Assembly: GCA_001403775.1 (NCBI GenBank)
Contig: CYUG01000011.1
Span: forward strand, 482,548 to 546,547
Reading direction: 5' to 3'
Length of the DNA stretch: 64,000 nt
From: Dermabacter indicis
Lineage (GTDB): Bacteria > Actinomycetota > Actinomycetes > Actinomycetales > Dermabacteraceae
Below the pieces are notes generated by a model. The model saw nothing but the letters and a program-made list of their open reading frames with translations, had not been told where the DNA came from and made no database searches. Every line of letters begins with the position of its first letter. Positions within the stretch are counted from its first letter, which is position 1. Of this stretch, positions 42,572 to 53,286 are shown in pieces. Made by a program: the position numbers and the translations under genes.

Positions 42572-45562
42572 TCAGTCTTCGCGGTTGAGGCGTGCGTGAA
42601 TCAACGGGAGGAGAACCCGGTCCACATCGGCCCTAAACTGCGGATCCGACAGATACTTGATAGCGAAGTCTTGGTTCTGGTTCATCCGGTCGAGCACGAT
42701 GTCTTGGATGCGTTCGGCGTACACGATAGAGAACATGTCGAGAGAGTTGTGGGCACGGGACTTGACTTCAGCATCTTCGACCATATCCTCGGTGAGCTGC
42801 TCAATCACCTTGTCCATATGGGTGAACTCAGTGCCCCACCGGTCATTGAAAGTGGAGATGATGTTGGACAGATTGTCCTTCTCGCCGCCGCTCCCACCGC
42901 CGGTGTCGGGGTTATTCGACAGCTGCCCTTGCTCATCAACCAGGTCGATGGAACCTTCGTAGACCTGCTGGATGCGGTAGTACTGCAGTGCAACCTCGTC
43001 TTCCAAATGTGGGGCGGGGTCGCCCTCAATGTGGAGCTTGCGCACCAAGAGCTTGGCGTAGGCCGCGAAGCGGTGAAGTCGCTCGTCGTCGTAGCGGATG
43101 ATATGGGTCAGGAAGTCGTAATTGCGGTTGAACTTATTCATCCGCGCCCGCACCTCAAGCTTGTCCTCGTTGGGCAGTTCATCAAACCGGGCGACGGCAG
43201 GATCAAGGTAAGCATTGAGACGGCTGAAGTCGAGGTTCGTTTGCTTCATCTGCTCGGTGAAGAACACCTTGGTAAAGCCCTCGATCTCTTTGTCCGTCCA
43301 CAAATGGTAGGAAGCGAGGGCGTGGTAGAGGTCGTAGACGATGTTCGGGTCTGTCTCCTCGGTGATCCCGGTGGAAATGTAGTAGTCCTGGAACGACTTC
43401 TGGATATCTTCTGCGGTGTTGACGAAGTCGAGCACGAACGTGTCGGTCTTACCCGGATGCATACGGTTGATCCGCGAGAGGGTCTGTACCGCTTTGACCC
43501 CGTGGAGTTTCTTGTCCACATACATCGTGTGCAGAAGCGGTTGATCGAAGCCCGTCTGATACTTCTCAGCCACCAGCATCAGTTGGTACTCGCCAGTGGC
43601 GAATTTCTCCGGCAACTCCGCTTCGGGGATCCGGTTGAGCTGTTCCTCGGTGTAGTCGGCACCCTTGTCCTCGACCGTTCCTGAGAACGCCACCAGCACG
43701 CCAAGATCCGTATACCCCATCTGTTTGATGTAGTCACGGAAGGCGAAGTAGTAGCGCACCGCATGCAGGCGGGAACCAGTCACCAGCATTGCCTTAGCGT
43801 TACCGCCGATCTTGTGGGCGACGTTGGCGCGGAAGTGCTCGATGATGATCTCGGCCTTTTGCCTCAGGTTATAAGGATGCAGACTCAAGTATTTGCCGAG
43901 CGCCTTGTTGGCTTGCTTGGTCGAGTATTCTGGATCGTCCGCAATAGCTTTCCCGACCCGGTAAAAGGCCTGGTAGGTGGTGTAGTTCTTCAGCACGTCA
44001 AGAATGAAGCCTTCTTCGATGGCTTGACGCATCGAATACACGTGGAACGGGACCGGGGTGGCGTCAGGAACCGGGGTGCCAAAGATCTCGAGCGTCTTCT
44101 GCTTCGGGGTCGCAGTAAACGCGAAGAACGACAGGTTGGGCTGGCGGCCCTGCGTGCGTAGTTGCTCGGCGATCTGTTCATCGATCTCTAGCTGTTCGGC
44201 CTCCACCTGCGCTTCGGCAGCAGCGTAACGGTCCAGCAAGTCCTCCTCGGATTCCTTTCCCGCCGTAGCTGCATCCGCGAGCACCTGCTTGAGCTTTTCC
44301 GAGGCCTCACCGGTCTGAGACGAATGCGCCTCGTCTACGATTACCGCGAACCGCTTACCAGTAGTAGCGACCTTGCTGACATCAACGAACGGGAATTTCT
44401 GCAGGGTGGAGATGATGATCTTCACTCCATCAGCGATCGCCTCGGTGAGCTGTCGAGCATTCTTGTCGACCTTGACCACCACGCCAGCGGTGTGATCCAT
44501 CGCGTAAATCGTGTCCTGCAACTGCTTATCCAGCACCCGCCGGTCGGTGATCACAACGATCGAATCAAACACCGCCCGCTGCTGTTCGTCATGCAGATTA
44601 GATAGATGGTGGGCCAGCCAGGCGATCGTGTTCGACTTACCTGAGCCCGCCGAGTGCTGCACCAAATAGTTCTTCCCCGCACCACGAATCTTGGCGTCGG
44701 CAACGAGTGCACGCACGGCATCGAGCTGGTGGTAGCGCGGGAAGATCAACTTATCCTTCCGCCGGTCGCTCTCGTGCGGGAGGAACTGAACGAATCGATG
44801 CAAAATGTCGAGCAGAGAATCTTTGGCCAGCACCTCTTCCCACAGGTAAGATGTCTTGTACTTACCTGCCACCGGCGGGTTACCAGCACCATTCTCAAAA
44901 CCACGGTTGAACGGCAAGAAGACCGTGTCCATCCCTGCGAGCTTGGTGGTCATCCATGCCTCGTCAGTATCGACCGCAAAATGCACCACCGCACGCCGGT
45001 TCAACCCAAACAGCACCTCATTGGCTGGGCGGGACCGCTTGTACTGGTCAATCGCGTTCCGATAGGTCTGCCCGGTCAGTTGATTCTTCAACTCCAACGT
45101 CACAACCGGAATACCGTTAACGAACAGCACCGTGTCGACAGAGTTGTCGTTTTTTGTCGAGTACCGCAGCTGGCGCACCACCGTCATCCGGTTCGCCCAA
45201 TACTTCTCCGCCAACAGCTCGTTCAAATCCGAACCAGGAGCAAAGAACACCAGCTTGAAGCGTGCTCCCAGATCCTCCACGCCACGACGCAGAACCTCGA
45301 CAACGCCGCGCCGATCCAGCTCGCGAGCCACCCGCTTGCAAAACTTCTCGCCAGCCTTCGCCCCGTGGATGCGCTCCAAACGCTCCCACTGCTGCGCTTG
45401 CGTATCTCGCACGAAGTCGAGCAAATCTTGCGGATACAGGCCCAAGTAGCGGTCATACCCGGCAGGGCTTCGCGACTCGTAAAAGTCAAGCTCCGTGGGA
45501 CCAACATGCGTCAGCGCGTACTCAATCTCATCTTCAAATCTGCGCTCAGACGTATCCATCAC
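42572..45562 (-). CDS. hsdR: Type I restriction endonuclease subunit R (HsdR)
   Basis: About 996 residues; GTG at 45562 or ATG at 45559, both overlapping the hsdS stop. The N-terminal nuclease domain shows VDTVLFVNGIPVVTLELKNQ with Glu157 and Lys159 of the PD-ExK core. A superfamily 2 translocase follows with HSAGSGKS (303-310), DEAH at 410-413, and FAFTATPKQKTLE. The C-terminal helical part has a Gly/Ser linker (PDTGGGSGGEKDN). It cuts DNA far from the recognition site after ATP-driven translocation. All motifs look intact. It is the last gene of hsdM-hsdS-hsdR, convergent with otsAB. Confidence 0.96.
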   Translation of the reverse strand: MMDTSERRFEDEIEYALTHVGPTELDFYESRSPAGYDRYLGLYPQDLLDFVRDTQAQQWERLERIHGAKAGEKFCKRVARELDRRGVVEVLRRGVEDLGARFKLVFFAPGSDLNELLAEKYWANRMTVVRQLRYSTKNDNSVDTVLFVNGIPVVTLELKNQLTGQTYRNAIDQYKRSRPANEVLFGLNRRAVVHFAVDTDEAWMTTKLAGMDTVFLPFNRGFENGAGNPPVAGKYKTSYLWEEVLAKDSLLDILHRFVQFLPHESDRRKDKLIFPRYHQLDAVRALVADAKIRGAGKNYLVQHSAGSGKSNTIAWLAHHLSNLHDEQQRAVFDSIVVITDRRVLDKQLQDTIYAMDHTAGVVVKVDKNARQLTEAIADGVKIIISTLQKFPFVDVSKVATTGKRFAVIVDEAHSSQTGEASEKLKQVLADAATAGKESEEDLLDRYAAAEAQVEAEQLEIDEQIAEQLRTQGRQPNLSFFAFTATPKQKTLEIFGTPVPDATPVPFHVYSMRQAIEEGFILDVLKNYTTYQAFYRVGKAIADDPEYSTKQANKALGKYLSLHPYNLRQKAEIIIEHFRANVAHKIGGNAKAMLVTGSRLHAVRYYFAFRDYIKQMGYTDLGVLVAFSGTVEDKGADYTEEQLNRIPEAELPEKFATGEYQLMLVAEKYQTGFDQPLLHTMYVDKKLHGVKAVQTLSRINRMHPGKTDTFVLDFVNTAEDIQKSFQDYYISTGITEETDPNIVYDLYHALASYHLWTDKEIEGFTKVFFTEQMKQTNLDFSRLNAYLDPAVARFDELPNEDKLEVRARMNKFNRNYDFLTHIIRYDDERLHRFAAYAKLLVRKLHIEGDPAPHLEDEVALQYYRIQQVYEGSIDLVDEQGQLSNNPDTGGGSGGEKDNLSNIISTFNDRWGTEFTHMDKVIEQLTEDMVEDAEVKSRAHNSLDMFSIVYAERIQDIVLDRMNQNQDFAIKYLSDPQFRADVDRVLLPLIHARLNRED

Positions 45563-46860
45563 GCCACCTCGCCCACACGAACCTTGCCCGTTACGACATC
45601 ATTAATAACCTGCTTGCGATACTTACCTAGAAGCTCAATCTGCCTATTGATACCCTCAATGATCGAATCAATCTGGGCTGACTTTTCTTCGAGAAAATCG
45701 ACGATATTCTGTTGCTCTTCCATCGAGGGGACGAGAATCGGAATCTTGCCGATTTCCTTGTAGCTTGCGGATTGACGAACGCCTCCGCCGAGCGAGTAAA
45801 ACACCTTTGCAAGGTCATAACACCGCAGTAGCCATGCAAGATATTCATTGAGGATTGGCCCGCGGGCCTTAAGGCTGATGTATGCGCTGGTGATGATTCC
45901 ACGCTCCTTGGCGAGCGCGCTTCGGAGACTGCGTTTATCGTTTTGCAGATCAGTCATTCGAAGGACGATGTCGCCGGGCTCGACGATTTGATAAGAATCG
46001 AAGGAGGCTGGAAGTAAACCAAATGCTAGGTCGATATCTTTGCGAATGATTCGGCCATAACTAAGGCTGAGCAGATTCTTCTCTGACAGATCTGCATTCT
46101 TGACCCTATTCTCATCGGTAACAACCGAGATCGAAGCCGTTTTCCAGACTGCTGGGGCCATGCCAATCCAGTCGATCCCGCTGTCGCGCATCGGCACATC
46201 CGGATCTAGGCCACGAGTCACCGTGCGGGCGATCAACTCCCGCCGATACCGCTCCAACAAGTCAACCTCACGGGCCATCCTCTCAATCAATCCATCAATT
46301 TCAGTGGTCTTGGATTTCAAGAATTCAGCTATAGTGCGTTGCTCTTCGAATGGAGGCTGAAGAATTGTGACATCGTTAAATAGGCGCTGCGTGACGCTGT
46401 ATACCTTTACCCCTTGAACAGACCGTTGGATCTGTTGCCGCCAGACGGGCGAAATCATTTGGTATGCCATGTATTCGTGACGGAAACCTGGACTTGGTCG
46501 TGCAATGAGTGTGTGGTACCCCGCGTACAGCGCATCCTCACCTGCTGCACGAACCATGTTTCCCGCGCCTTCGATATCTTCACTCGTATCAGCAAAAACG
46601 ATGTCGCCCTCATCCAGGAGAGCTCGCTCAACCTGTGATTCCTTGACGAACTCTTCAGGGATGTAGCGAATATGGGGGCCCGAAACACACACGCCGGGGT
46701 TATCTTTAGCGTGTATTTGTCCGTAGCTGATCACTGGTAATCCGTGATCGCTTAAATTTTGCTTCTTGATGTCTAGCCCCCGATAAAACCTATAGACCTT
46801 CGAGAACCTCACAAGATCCCAGTTATCTGGGAATACATCCACCCAGTTTTTGTCACTCAT
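45559..46860 (-). CDS. hsdS: Type I restriction specificity subunit (HsdS)
   Basis: 433 residues with the usual two target-recognition domains and two helical spacers. The first spacer is around residues 168-215 (PPFEEQRTIAEFLKSKTTEI, LLERYRRELIARTVTRGLD). The second is near the C-terminus (SMEEQQNIVDFLEEKSAQID, LLGKYRKQVINDVVTGKVRV). The recognition domains are visibly less GC-rich than the rest of the operon, as expected for sequences exchanged between systems. The start overlaps the hsdM stop (TAATG). Confidence 0.93.
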   Translation of the reverse strand: MSDKNWVDVFPDNWDLVRFSKVYRFYRGLDIKKQNLSDHGLPVISYGQIHAKDNPGVCVSGPHIRYIPEEFVKESQVERALLDEGDIVFADTSEDIEGAGNMVRAAGEDALYAGYHTLIARPSPGFRHEYMAYQMISPVWRQQIQRSVQGVKVYSVTQRLFNDVTILQPPFEEQRTIAEFLKSKTTEIDGLIERMAREVDLLERYRRELIARTVTRGLDPDVPMRDSGIDWIGMAPAVWKTASISVVTDENRVKNADLSEKNLLSLSYGRIIRKDIDLAFGLLPASFDSYQIVEPGDIVLRMTDLQNDKRSLRSALAKERGIITSAYISLKARGPILNEYLAWLLRCYDLAKVFYSLGGGVRQSASYKEIGKIPILVPSMEEQQNIVDFLEEKSAQIDSIIEGINRQIELLGKYRKQVINDVVTGKVRVGEVA

Positions 46861-48929
46861 TAATTCACCTGCTCACTGAAGAGTTTGGCGATGTCGGCTT
46901 GGATGCTTGCGGAGAGCGTCTGAATCTCAGCGAGAGTTTCTACTGGGTCGCCGAGTTCTTCGTATTTGTAGAAGTAGCGGGTGAAGGGGATCTCGTAACC
47001 GACCTTGGTTTTGTCATGGTCGATCCAGGCGTCGGAAGCGTAGGGGATGACTTCGCGCTGGAAATACGCCCCAATGTCCTCGAGGAACGGGATCTGCTCA
47101 GTGTCGCGTAGATCAGTGTCTGGCTCCGGGTTCCCTTTCGAATCCACACAGATGTCTGCGTCGGGGTTCTTGGTGCCGAGTTCAGCGACAATCTCGCGTA
47201 GCGCTGCGATGCGGATCTTCTCGCCACGGTCTTTGATGCCTTCTCGGAGTAGGTCGGTGAATTCGTCCCGGTTGAGGTACACGTGTTCAGCATCGAGTGC
47301 CTCGAGGGTAGCGATGATCGCATTCTGCACTCGCTTGCCTGCCTCGATTTCTTCGCTGCGTGCTGGCTCGCTGCGCTTTGTCGACGTGGCAAGGCCCACG
47401 AATGGTTTGGACTGTTTGAGTACTTCGATCGAGTCTGGGGCGGTTTGGAAGCTCAGCCTTAGCGGGCGTTCCACGACAACCTCATGGTAAGCAAAGTCTT
47501 CGGTGGCGAAGATCTTCGACTCTTCGGTTTCTTGGAACGTGCCATATATACGAGTGATGTCGGCAATGTTGTCGTCGGTGAGTTCCTTGCGCTTTTCACC
47601 CAAGGGTTTACGCATCCGCTGGAAATAGGGGGTCGCATCGATCAGTTGCACCTTGTTCTTGCGTCGGCGCTCCTTCTTGTTCGACAGCACCCAGATGTAG
47701 GTGAGAATTCCGGTGTTGTAAAACATTTGATCAGGCAGCGCGATGATCGCTTCCAGCCAGTCGTTCTCAAGGATCCAACGGCGGATCTCTGATTCGCCTT
47801 GACCAGCCCCACCCGTGAAGAGAGGCGAGCCGTTGAACACGATCCCGATTCGTGTGCCAGGGGCATTCACAAGATCCTTGGGGTCATAAGGCTTCATCTT
47901 CGAGATCATGTGTTGCAAGAAGAGGAAGGAGCCATCCGACACACGCGGCGTTCCCGCTCCGAAGCGACCCTGGTAGCCCTGGCGTTCAGCCTCGTCACGA
48001 ATCGGGTCGGCGTACTTCTTCCAGTCCACGCCAAAGGGCGGATTGCACAGCATGTAGTCAAACCGCATCCCTGCCGTCTTGTCGTTCGTCAGCGTATTGC
48101 CAAAGTAGATGCGCTCTTGGCGTTCACCCTTAATCATGATGTCGGACTTCGCCACCGCATAGGTTTGCGGATTGAGCTCTTGACCGTACACCTCGAGGCG
48201 AGCAGTGCTATTCAGCTCATCGACGTGCTGGGCGGCTATGGAAAGCATGCCGCCGGTGCCGACCCCTGGGTCATACAGCGAGGCCATGGCTCCGTCCGCA
48301 CAAAGCCGGTTGATATCTTCCTCAGGGTTGAACAAGAGGTTAACCATGAGGCTAATGACCTCACGCGGGGTGAAGTGTTCACCGGCGGTCTCATTCGACA
48401 ATTCAGAGAACCTGCGGATAAGTTCTTCGAAGATGTAGCCCATCTGGTCGTTACTCACCACGTCAGGGTGGAGGTTGACCTTCGCGGAAGTGAACTCACT
48501 GAGCACGTAATACAGCAGGTTGGCCTCATCGAGGCGCTCGATCACGTTGTAAAAATTGTAGGCCTCCATCACCTCACGCGCAGCAGGCGCAAACGCCTGC
48601 ACATAGTAGGTCAGGTTCTGCTCAAGGTTGTCCGCATCGTCGAGCAACGTCTTCAGCGTGAAGTTCGAGGTATTCCAAAACGGATACCCCGTCGCCTTCG
48701 CGTACTGCAGTTCCTTGACCTGTGAGGGCACCGAGGTGCCCTTGATGTTTAACACCGCCTGCTTCGTGTCGACCAGGACTGAATCGAGGCGGGTGAGCAC
48801 CGTGAAGGGCAAGACCACGTCGCCGTATTCGTGCACCTTGTAATCGCCGCGCAAAATCTCGGCGATCTTCCAGATCAGGGACACATGACTCGTTAGTTTC
48901 TGAGTGCTCACTTGGGTCAATTCCTTCAT
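46860..48929 (-). CDS. hsdM: Type I DNA methyltransferase subunit (HsdM)
   Basis: 689 residues. N-terminal HsdM domain (KIAEILRGDYKVHEYGDVVL), then an N6-adenine methylase with the SAM site DPGVGTGGM (220-228) and catalytic NPPF (296-299). A GTG at residue 7 with AAGGA in front is an alternative start. The long C-terminal part (after about 480) includes ESKIFATEDFAYHEVVVERP and is typical of the larger HsdM class. With HsdS it protects host DNA; with HsdR it restricts unmodified DNA. Confidence 0.96.
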   Translation of the reverse strand: MKELTQVSTQKLTSHVSLIWKIAEILRGDYKVHEYGDVVLPFTVLTRLDSVLVDTKQAVLNIKGTSVPSQVKELQYAKATGYPFWNTSNFTLKTLLDDADNLEQNLTYYVQAFAPAAREVMEAYNFYNVIERLDEANLLYYVLSEFTSAKVNLHPDVVSNDQMGYIFEELIRRFSELSNETAGEHFTPREVISLMVNLLFNPEEDINRLCADGAMASLYDPGVGTGGMLSIAAQHVDELNSTARLEVYGQELNPQTYAVAKSDIMIKGERQERIYFGNTLTNDKTAGMRFDYMLCNPPFGVDWKKYADPIRDEAERQGYQGRFGAGTPRVSDGSFLFLQHMISKMKPYDPKDLVNAPGTRIGIVFNGSPLFTGGAGQGESEIRRWILENDWLEAIIALPDQMFYNTGILTYIWVLSNKKERRRKNKVQLIDATPYFQRMRKPLGEKRKELTDDNIADITRIYGTFQETEESKIFATEDFAYHEVVVERPLRLSFQTAPDSIEVLKQSKPFVGLATSTKRSEPARSEEIEAGKRVQNAIIATLEALDAEHVYLNRDEFTDLLREGIKDRGEKIRIAALREIVAELGTKNPDADICVDSKGNPEPDTDLRDTEQIPFLEDIGAYFQREVIPYASDAWIDHDKTKVGYEIPFTRYFYKYEELGDPVETLAEIQTLSASIQADIAKLFSEQVN

Positions 48930-50229: not shown

Positions 50230-51585
50230 TCAGACCTCGTCGGCTGAAGAGGTGCCACGAGCGACGGCGAGCGGCACTGGCCTCCGCGGCGGGCTCATGC
50301 GTGTATCAAACTGCGTGCTAGCCCATTTTCGCTGGGTGGAGTTAAGCAGGTCGAATAGCTCACTGCACACGAATCCGCGCGTACCCTTTCCGATGTTCCT
50401 TTCGTCGAGCACCCCCGCAGCCTCGAGATATTCCAATGCCTTATGCGCGGCAGTGCGACTACTCCCCGTCAGGTGAGCAGAAGCGTTGATCGATAACGCC
50501 GGAAGTTTCGGCAAGACCTCCACGATCTTCCACACGGTTGAGTCGCTTCGAGGAGGAGCAGCGCCAACGCTCTTCGCGTACTCAACGACTAATTGTCGGC
50601 TGTGAACGTCAAAACGATCGAGTTCATGTTTCAGGTCGAGAGCGAGGTCCACGGCAGAATCTGCCGCCCCAATGAAGTGTCCGAGCCAAGCGTTGATCCC
50701 CTCGTTGAGGCTCAGAGATCGCTTTGGCTCAACCTCGCTCGTCAATAATGCACCCGCCGGAATGCCGCGATAGGCCATGAGGGCGGTGACATACTCGTCC
50801 GACCGAGTCAGCAACACCTGGCTCAAGGGCAAAACGGCTCCCTGCGTCAAACCCGTTCGGGCGAGAACCGTGTGGATGAGTGCACGACCAATTCGCCCGT
50901 TGCCATCAGCAAATGGATGCAGCGTTTCAAACTGTGCGTGGGCGATCCCGGCTTGGATAAGTGGACCGCTGGAGGAGCCGTTAAGGAACGCGCTGAGGTC
51001 TTCGAGTGCCGGTTCTAGATCGTCGGGGCTTGGAGGAATGAACTCCGCCTCCCCAGGGTGGAAGCTGTTTCCACCCACCCAGTTTTGCCGATCACGCGTG
51101 CCGAGATTGCTACGCCCTGGAAGCAGTTCGCGTTGGAGCTTTTCAATATCGCTCCATTCGATGCGCTCTGCGTTGCCTAACTCTCCAACGGCGCGGGTCA
51201 GGGCATCGATGTTCCCCACGATTTCGGCTTCAGCGGTGATGCTTACACTACGCGCTCCGGTCCCGGAGCCATATTCTTCGCGCTTGAGTTCCTCTAGGGC
51301 AATCTTTCGCGCGCTGGACTGCACCCCCTCGATGAACGAACTCGACACGGCTTCGCTGCGGAGTAGGTAGCGCGAGAGGGCCTCCATTCTTCCGGCCGAT
51401 TCGCGGAGATTGAGGTGACGGATGCGCCGCTCCACCCGTGCAGCTTCCTGCGACACGTGCGGATCGATTCGCCATTCGGGGCTCGCGAGGGCAAAAGGGA
51501 CATATGACCAGTAGGTGCCTCCCCACCGGTCCCGAGGACGGCGACCGAGTTCCGAGGGAGACCACGTTTGAACCTTCCACGACAT
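50230..51585 (-). CDS. Fic-domain protein with N-terminal inhibitory helix and C-terminal winged helix
   Basis: 451 residues from the ATG at 51585 (AAAGG about 9 bases upstream); an ATG at 51612 would add nine residues. The Fic active site HPFADGNGRIGR is complete (about 223-234 in this numbering), so AMP transfer or another phosphotransfer is likely. The class II inhibitory motif SSFIEG with Glu86 is upstream in the same chain, so the enzyme should be self-inhibited. The C-terminal 120 residues contain a winged helix (LSINASAHLTGSSRTAAHKA, LEYLEAAGVLDERNIGKGTR). A perfect palindrome sits at its promoter, which suggests autoregulation. Confidence 0.9.
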   Translation of the reverse strand: MSWKVQTWSPSELGRRPRDRWGGTYWSYVPFALASPEWRIDPHVSQEAARVERRIRHLNLRESAGRMEALSRYLLRSEAVSSSFIEGVQSSARKIALEELKREEYGSGTGARSVSITAEAEIVGNIDALTRAVGELGNAERIEWSDIEKLQRELLPGRSNLGTRDRQNWVGGNSFHPGEAEFIPPSPDDLEPALEDLSAFLNGSSSGPLIQAGIAHAQFETLHPFADGNGRIGRALIHTVLARTGLTQGAVLPLSQVLLTRSDEYVTALMAYRGIPAGALLTSEVEPKRSLSLNEGINAWLGHFIGAADSAVDLALDLKHELDRFDVHSRQLVVEYAKSVGAAPPRSDSTVWKIVEVLPKLPALSINASAHLTGSSRTAAHKALEYLEAAGVLDERNIGKGTRGFVCSELFDLLNSTQRKWASTQFDTRMSPPRRPVPLAVARGTSSADEV

Positions 51586-51619
51586 CGCCACTAACCTTTC
51601 ACTCGAAGCCATTTTGCGC

Positions 51620-51638
51620 CACTTTAGCTCCTAAAGTG
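51620..51638. promoter_or_regulatory. Palindromic operator candidate of the fic gene
   Basis: CACTTTAG-CTC-CTAAAGTG: perfect 8-bp arms with a 3-base spacer. It lies 35-53 bases before the chosen fic ATG. A -10-like TATTTT on the minus strand (complement of 51643-51648) is 4 bases away, so the palindrome would cover the transcription start. A symmetric site here fits a dimeric winged-helix repressor, possibly the Fic protein itself. Confidence 0.6.
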
Positions 51639-51648
51639 ACACAAAATA

Positions 51649-51885
51649 GGGTCTTACGAAAGTTTAGAGGGAAACATTGCAGCAGTGCAGGAGGTACGCG
51701 ACCGATACGTTCGCCATGACGTCTCAGAACTCAAGCTCTTGACCCGGCGCACAATCGAGAATCATCACTTCGCGGGTGTAGGAATCGAAGATGAGGGCGG
51801 CTTCTGCTGCGGTACAGACGTCTTCGAGATAAACCTAGGCACTCTCGAAGCTACTGCGTACTGACTGCGTACTCAGGGCAAAGCG
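51649..51885. other. Region upstream of fic without a recognisable gene
   Basis: About 240 bases. Short open frames exist on both strands (plus 51685-51864 ending LGTLEATAY; minus 51837-51724 ending CAPGQELEF), but neither matches a family I know and neither has a good ribosome site. It may hold a gene remnant. Confidence 0.4.
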
Positions 51886-52064: not shown

Positions 52065-52091
52065 ACTGGTGAGTCGGGACATGGTTGACAC
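52065..52091 (+). repeat. Internal terminal-motif copy L3, directly before the transposase start
   Basis: Shares GGTGAGTCG, GACATG and TTGACAC with the other copies. It ends one base before the ATG at 52093, so transposase binding here could repress its own expression. Confidence 0.8.
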
Positions 52092-52092
52092 C

Positions 52093-53286
52093 ATGAACAG
52101 TCCCAACCGCAACCTCGCCATCGTCAGAGCCGTTCAAAACCAAGGCGGCACACCCACCAACGTCGCCAAACGCTTTGGCATCTCACGCCAACGCGTCCAC
52201 CAGATACTCAACGCCTACGACGCAGGCGGCGCCGAGGCAATCGCACCGAAATCACGTGCCCCTCACACCCACCCACACGCGGTACCGGACGCGTTGCGCA
52301 ACGAAATCATCGATATCCGCAAACAGCTCACCCGGCACGGACTTGACGCAGGACCCGAAACCATCGCCTACCACCTCGAACAGGCCGGCAAACGCACCCC
52401 GTCAACTTCGACGATCCGTCGCATCCTCACCAACGAAGGCCTGATCACCCCGCAGCCGCAAAAGAAGCCAAAAAGCTCCTACATCCGCTTCGAGGCCGCA
52501 ATGCCCAACGAATGCTGGCAAGCCGACATCACCCACCTCTTCCTTGCCGACAACACACGCATTGAAGTCCTCGACTTCCTCGATGACCACTCGCGATACC
52601 TGTTGTCAATCACCGCGGCCGCCGCATTCACAGGCCCCGCCGTCGCCGCCGAACTCACACGCTTAATCCACACATACGACCCGCCAGCATCCACGCTTAC
52701 GGACAACGCACTGGTATTCACCGCACGCCTAGCCGGACGCAAAGGTGGGAGAAACGCTTTCGAAAAAGTGCTCGTCGCACACAAAATCCAACAGAAAAAC
52801 GGCCGGCCAGGCCACCCTCAAACCCAAGGAAAAATTGAGCGGTTCCACCAAACCCTCAAAAAATGGATTAAAGCCCGACCCCCAGCACAAAACATTGATG
52901 AGCTGCAACAACTCCTCAATGAGTTTCGCCAATACTACAACTGCACCCGACCCCACCGCGCCCTGGGCAGACGCACCCCACAGCAGGCATACACCACCGG
53001 AGTCAAAGCCACACCCAACAACAACCCCAAAGAAGAATGGCGAACCCGAAACGACACAATCGACAAAAACGGCAAAGTCAGCGTGCGCTACGCCGGCAAA
53101 CTTTTCCACCTCGGCATCGGACGCGCCTACAAACACAAGAAAATTCTCATGGTCATCACCGACAACCACATCATCACATCACTGGTTGAAACCGGAGAAG
53201 TACTCACCGAGCACTACATCGACACCGCCCGCGACTACCAAAAGGCCTACTGGAAACACGGCGACCCACCGCTCTACCCCAAATGA
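52093..53286 (+). CDS. IS481-family transposase (DDE)
   Basis: 397 residues from the ATG at 52093; the frame is open to a GTG at 52069, but that lies inside motif copy L3. N-terminal helix-turn-helix (TPTNVAKRFGISRQRVHQIL), a second one (STSTIRRILTNEGL), then the integrase core with Asp in CWQADITHLFLADN, Asp in STLTDNALVFTA, and Glu in HPQTQGKIERFHQTLKKW. The DDE triad is complete and the frame unbroken, so it may be active. Codon use is more A-rich (many ACA, CCA, AAA) than in backbone genes, showing recent acquisition. Confidence 0.93.
   Translation: MNSPNRNLAIVRAVQNQGGTPTNVAKRFGISRQRVHQILNAYDAGGAEAIAPKSRAPHTHPHAVPDALRNEIIDIRKQLTRHGLDAGPETIAYHLEQAGKRTPSTSTIRRILTNEGLITPQPQKKPKSSYIRFEAAMPNECWQADITHLFLADNTRIEVLDFLDDHSRYLLSITAAAAFTGPAVAAELTRLIHTYDPPASTLTDNALVFTARLAGRKGGRNAFEKVLVAHKIQQKNGRPGHPQTQGKIERFHQTLKKWIKARPPAQNIDELQQLLNEFRQYYNCTRPHRALGRRTPQQAYTTGVKATPNNNPKEEWRTRNDTIDKNGKVSVRYAGKLFHLGIGRAYKHKKILMVITDNHIITSLVETGEVLTEHYIDTARDYQKAYWKHGDPPLYPK

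Follow-up and report, generated by a model that had tools for sequence, protein, structure and literature searches.

A candidate four-half-site operator before a SoFic-like fic gene of Dermabacter indicis

Our analysis of a 64,000-nucleotide stretch of Dermabacter indicis DNA (the window) suggests that a short palindrome before a fic gene forms the centre of a four-half-site operator; the Fic protein would bind it with its winged helices and repress its own gene. We give this reading a probability of roughly 0.8. A self-repressing Fic protein with a helix-turn-helix is already known (CccR), and the four-half-site operator is what is new here. Little is known about the control of such winged-helix Fic proteins (SoFic-like defence candidates), and among the three described in the available portions of the papers cited below, one has been shown to repress itself. 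Constant spacing with changing letters offers a quick route to predicting the operators of these genes, and the spacing rule allows testing of how two dimers sit on DNA.

The operator before fic

A perfect palindrome had been reported in the earlier note at positions 51620 to 51638, and it was found exactly there as CACTTTAGCTCCTAAAGTG, with two perfect 8-bp arms and a 3-bp spacer. Even with up to three mismatches allowed this was the sole match in the window, where shuffles expect 0.03. The 2.23-Mb genome holds exactly one mismatch-free copy of the palindrome core, CTTTAGnnnCTAAAG, at fic; with one or two mismatches, the places found in the same genome did not exceed those in a backward-read control. 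An insertion-sequence end as the origin of the palindrome was considered and rejected, as the ORF of the nearby transposase, which we take to be IS481-like, begins at 52069 and is thus separated from the palindrome by over 400 bp.

The reported palindrome is only the central part of a larger operator (Table 1). A half-site matrix was built from 16 hand-picked, clear central palindromes of relatives, with the window left out, and was used to rank 340 half-sites of the fic promoter. Outer half-site R' came first, at −40, and outer half-site L' second, at +40; each of them outscores the central halves and ranks among the best 0.02 % of the window's 9-mers. The genome was also searched with the two-half-site pattern CTAAASTT-N21-CACTTTAG, allowing up to three mismatches. 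This returned the R'-L unit without mismatch and its mirror, R-L', with one mismatch, both at fic, followed, each with three mismatches, by the opposite-strand reading of the first place and by one place elsewhere. At up to three mismatches there were 3 + 1 matches (forward and reverse) vs 4 + 2 in the backward-read control, and therefore only the matches with no or one mismatch carry weight. The R'-L and R-L' units agree by eye at 27 of 37 positions, so the whole can be read as a 77-bp imperfect palindrome, which spans the presumed promoter, transcription start site and ribosome-binding site.

The palindrome had also been placed between a −10-like TATTTT and the start of fic. The TATTTT is present, yet the start that this placement assumed is probably not the true one. 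The sequence GAAAGG recurs 8–9 bases 5' of a downstream ATG in L006, L007 and L152, and because of this arrangement the true start of fic is likely to be the second ATG, at 51585. The palindrome would therefore lie in the presumed transcription-start and leader region. A consensus scan of the fic promoter returned no sigma-70-type pair and did not pick up the TATTTT.

This position raises the question of whether the inverted repeat acts instead as a hairpin in the leader RNA, controlling translation or transcript stability, with the DNA unbound by protein. In favour of this, the repeat comes after the presumed start site and before the ribosome-binding site, and the computed fold of the leader RNA is a stem of 15 pairs, two of them G-U (−22.7 kcal/mol, z −3.97). 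However, a hairpin does not predict half-sites at −40 and +40, and R' lies upstream of the presumed start site. The 29 internal mismatches of close palindromes comprise 10 G-U and 6 A-C, with no clear preference for wobble pairs over the other product of transitions, and some palindromes, L154 and L156 among them, lie 75–109 bp upstream of the expected start. Taken together, we consider the hairpin quite improbable.

Table 1. Features of the fic locus and its neighbourhood in the window
Feature	Position	Strand	Basis or remark
fic, class II Fic protein with C-terminal winged helix	50230..51612	−	ORF as listed; likely start 51585
Winged-helix domain codons (residues 359–416)	50365..50538	−	AlphaFold2 model
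Ribosome-binding site GAAAGG (51600–51595) and likely start ATG (51585–51583)	51583..51600	−	presumed; arranged as in L006, L007 and L152
Outer half-site L' AAAGGTTAG	51591..51599	−	second of 340; exactly 40 bp from L; overlaps ribosome-binding site
Half-site R CTAAAGTGG, right palindrome arm	51619..51627	−	sequence and relatives' matrix
Half-site L TCACTTTAG, left palindrome arm	51631..51639	−	sequence and relatives' matrix
−10-like TATTTT, presumed promoter element	51643..51648	−	read from sequence
Outer half-site R' CTAAACTTT	51659..51667	−	top of 340 by relatives' matrix; exactly 40 bp from R
Whole putative operator, 77-bp imperfect palindrome centred on 51629	51591..51667	−	matrix and two-half-site pattern
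hsdM fragment, N-terminal, 239 aa	49450–50169	−	TIGR00497 9.3e-88; 60 bp behind fic
Longer hsdM	46860–48929		beyond hsdM fragment
hsdS	45559–46860		type I restriction system
hsdR	42572–45562		type I restriction system
Transposase, integrase core and HTH	52069–53286	+	other side of fic

Palindromes and spacing before homologous fic genes

Homologues were gathered from searches of relatives, class, order and phylum, a named-genome scan and further stretches, with the named collections covering genome contigs and plasmids. The best palindrome between −110 and +25 of the expected gene start was scored for fic and for other ORF starts of the same loci. In the scored set, which comprised 135 of the 138 loci L005–L142 and includes the window's own copy and near-duplicates, a score of at least 9 was reached by 49/135 fic genes vs 11/369 control ORF starts (Mann–Whitney p 1e-19), and the best palindrome beat all 40 shuffles in 56/135 vs 20/369. 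Close homologues (at least 150 bits) gave 28/59 vs 3/80 at the same score. Examples are CCAAGGATAATGCTTATCCTTGG (L007), CAACTTTAAGAGTTAAAGTTG (L016), GTCGACTTAACGCTTAAGTCGAC (L013) and CCTACTTTAAGGACTAAAGTAGG (L153). Short palindromes are common, and at a score of at least 7 the fic count of 69/135 stands beside 41/369 control ORF starts; the palindrome could thus in principle be a chance product of an AT-rich intergenic stretch. The excess at fic over controls, the window shuffles and the genome-unique unit with no or one mismatch all oppose this, and we regard it as refuted by the outer half-sites lying exactly at −40 and +40 in the window and by the hold-out described below, which leaves it scarcely credible.

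The letters themselves are poorly kept. A search for the identical CTTTAGnnnCTAAAG before homologous genes had been proposed as a check, and read literally this check fails: across 222 loci the sequence matched only at L001 and L005, both of which are the window's own site. The relaxed form CTTTARnnnYTAAAG precedes fic in six more loci (L010, L016, L020, L153, L154 and L156); L147 is a repeat of L010, and the match in L093 is ~2.9 kb from its fic. Within the stretch from −110 to +25, no palindrome scoring at least 7 was seen in 25/59 close homologues. In some of these homology begins far inside the protein, so the start is misplaced (L009, L024 and L032), and L012, L041, L045, L047, L052 and L062 appear bare by eye. 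Orthologous promoters lacking the palindrome, the outcome held to count against self-regulation, are therefore real for the literal letters and for these 25 close homologues, whereas other relatives carry palindromes of their own. Four of the close homologues without a clear palindrome (L045, L047, L052 and L062) have a similar GGAATCCGGCGATGGG at the start instead.

Whole palindromes repeat at 40 bp in L006–L008 and L013, and half-sites alone do so in L035–L037; because of these repeats the half-sites were compared with their flanks at all offsets. In the first comparison, which excluded L051, L065, L166, L170, L019 and L163, the inner-facing outer halves matched better (R at −40, 4.16; L at +40, 4.41) than the far outer halves (L at −40, 2.80; R at +40, 3.57). 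A shuffle-controlled test then used all 85 rows with a palindrome of at least 6.5, minus 4 redundant rows, and its counts describe only loci having such a palindrome. In the 47 non-redundant close loci the mean match was 4.21 of 9 for L at +40 and 3.96 for R at −40; the highest value that any offset reached in 200 shuffles was 2.96. Of the 47, 26 carry an outer half-site at 40 or 41, whereas control offset pairs averaged 1.3 and reached at most 6. The 34 distant loci, many of which are outside Actinomycetota by title, peaked at L+41 (3.91 vs a null of 3.38), with R at −41 at 2.97, below that shuffle null. They also gave weak hints of 31- and 51-bp registers, which would be one-turn shifts of 40–41 bp. 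Part of the L+40 signal may reflect AAAGG kept for translation, since L' and the ribosome-binding site share bases; the R−40 signal is free of that.

The loci from which the register was first read (L006–L008, L013 and L035–L037) are part of both register sets and absent from the hold-out and paralogue sets. In the hold-out of 15 later loci, 5 scored at least 9 and 8 had a palindrome of at least 6.5. L+40 and R−40 were the two best offsets, and the pre-set statistic of 4.56 exceeded the 3.06 that shuffling reached at most (p=0.0033, the lowest value that 300 shuffles allow). What the relatives share, judged from these comparisons, is the spacing rule R'-N19-L-N3-R-N19-L' and not fixed letters.

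The Fic protein and its predicted self-repression

The fic ORF comprises 460 codons, and its protein matches the Pfam Fic family at 3.3e-16 and carries the active-site motif HPFx[D/E]GNGRxxR as HPFADGNGRIGR at residues 232–243. The N-terminal inhibitory motif SSFIEG, read by the earlier note, is present as S91xxxE95G96 and fits [S/T]xxxE[G/N]; S91, E95 and G96 are invariant across 29 aligned sequences. The C-terminal winged helix named in the same place was likewise seen, at residues 359–416 of an AlphaFold2 model for which the input was the window protein and 14 related-locus sequences. The predicted fold has helices at 359–366, 375–382 and 386–398 and strands at 403–406 and 412–415, with a pLDDT of 87–98 in this block and a whole-model mean of 79. 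Pfam HTH models gave no match above cut-off on the window protein (HVO_A0114, at 0.047, fell below it), and MarR_2 matched 13 of 29 family members at E ≤1.

The PADLOC Sofic anti-phage profile PDLC03963 matched residues 33–424 at 3.6e-66, in a table without a cut-off. The cut-offs of the NCBIfam SoFic equivalog NF046030 (61.4 of 550 bits) and of Pfam SoFic-like_C PF21248 (12.6 of 27 bits) were not reached. We term the protein SoFic-like because PADLOC calls SoFic and the NCBIfam equivalog cut-off is unmet. The closest solved structure was the Mycobacterium marinum Fic protein 7cb8 (Z 38.9 over 371 residues, 29 % identity), for which a literature search found no paper, followed by SoFic 3eqx (Z 36.3 over 350 residues), the alignment of which extends to residue 426. 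Further neighbours reaching the C-terminal part were CbFic2 8cil (Z 26.5) and 7xux (Z 24.8, 19 % identity), which may be CccR, its entry title being silent on this; 4rgl (Z 25.1) covers only residues 41–327. In the VIA-align list few rows extend to the winged helix, and most cover the Fic part. Newer SoFic entries in the PDB are 9tch, 9tc4, 9tcl and 9tb0.

Operator distance correlated with winged-helix distance once the Fic core was removed (partial r 0.24, p 0.0005), and did not correlate with the Fic core once the winged helix was removed (−0.02, p 0.65). With all 52 rows the N-terminal stretch 70–119 (0.225) stood slightly above the winged helix (0.214); the latter came first with 48 rows, a set from which L051, L065, L166 and L170, with doubtful palindromes, had been dropped after the result was seen. 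The operator letters therefore seem to follow the winged helix to a modest extent.

The half-sites could in principle suit another dimeric regulator, either a chromosomal one or one that came with the restriction-modification genes, Fic as the binder being something we infer. However, the exact core and the two-half-site unit with no or one mismatch occur in the genome only at fic. The repeats also persist where neighbours differ: the family scans, which covered the neighbourhoods of the window and L143, gave, for seven ORFs scanned around the L143 fic, a permease, a beta-lactamase-like protein, DUF2268, MerR/TipAS, CobW, an IrrE-type protein and one unmatched ORF, with no restriction protein among the seven. 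Furthermore, the half-site letters vary between clades and paralogues while the register stays. We consider another factor unlikely, although a little less so than the hairpin. The suggestion that Fic regulates itself is well supported by inference from the greater frequency of palindromes before homologous fic genes, the 40-bp register, the differing neighbourhoods and the letters that modestly track the winged helix.

There is also an experimental precedent, which supports self-repression by the window Fic. In the literature searched, CccR was the only Fic protein with demonstrated binding to a mapped site in the promoter of its own gene. According to the available text of PMC9755527, CccR of Yersinia pseudotuberculosis, a secreted effector, is a Fic protein that carries a C-terminal HTH; repression of its own promoter requires the dimer and was seen by footprint, gel shift and lacZ derepression. 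Its catalytic mutant H192A still represses, so catalysis is not required there. The coupling suggested in the earlier note, in which AMP transfer or auto-modification would alter repression, found no support in the present sequence comparisons. As described there, CccR's inverted half-sites lie near −35/−10, and the window fic similarly has inverted half-sites over its own presumed promoter. In several of the relatives examined here, GGATAA half-sites are similar to the CccR half-site given in that text, AGATAATCAT. Unlike the CccR site of the same account, which has two half-sites and a 26-bp spacer, the window has R'-N19-L-N3-R-N19-L' with its 40-bp register.

In the self-repression that we favour, the operator would most likely carry two Fic dimers. 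The first would span R' and L, the second R and L', each pair with its centres 28 bp apart, and the dimers would meet at the central dyad. This pairing is favoured because the outer halves nearest the centre are better kept than the far halves. It also fits the spacing of the CccR helices, which lie 70 Å apart in the apo structure according to the text available (PMC9755527), since this is far for one small palindrome with half-site centres 12 bp apart (~41 Å in straight DNA). The dimers would cover the presumed promoter, start site and ribosome-binding site, and the resulting low basal expression would limit the amount of an AMP-transferase that may be toxic; once the dimers left the DNA, Fic synthesis would rise.

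Two further class II Fic proteins bear on this. SoFic/EcSofic, an anti-phage Fic in the portions seen of PMC12249575, shares with the window protein its class, an N-terminal inhibitory motif and a C-terminal domain; DNA binding by SoFic had not been demonstrated as of 2023, as stated in the available part of PMC10628234. CbFic2 of Coxiella burnetii, in the same part of PMC10628234, is likewise a class II Fic with a C-terminal winged helix, and its helix binds DNA in a dimer-linked manner. CbFic2 was assayed there with random DNA and no operator was identified, whereas the window has a predicted one, and whether DNA binding holds the enzyme inactive becomes addressable with defined DNA. Its authors propose, in the text available, that DNA binding switches an AMPylating monomer to a deAMPylating dimer. 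This runs opposite to the idea that AMP transfer changes repression, in that the DNA changes the enzyme. More speculatively, and in our view doubtful at present, winged-helix Fic proteins across phyla might share one operator architecture set by the quaternary structure of the enzyme, with two dimers on four half-sites at 40–41 bp; a single switch would then set both the occupancy of the DNA and the dimer state governing AMP transfer or removal, and the promoter would also hold the defence enzyme in a safe dimeric form.

Further fic genes and the neighbourhood

A second Fic gene of this genome (contig 17, 24493–25695; L173/L192) is ~30 % identical and keeps the C-terminal extension. It is preceded by a different palindrome, TTACGATCACTTTTCAAAGAAACTGATCGTAA, which is identical in another species of the genus. 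In this paralogous family of winged-helix Fic proteins 17 of 30 score at least 9, and the best offsets over 21 rows were L+41 and R−41. As far as these sequences indicate, the letters differ and the register is nearly the same.

Before an Enterobacter plasmid Fic gene (L222, 1144–2295) repeats of the TATTAAAG type stand ahead of the start, ~31 bp apart by eye. They do not follow the 40-bp register by eye, and the register there is possibly one turn shorter. In the window, a broken extra hsdM adjoins the type I restriction system behind fic.
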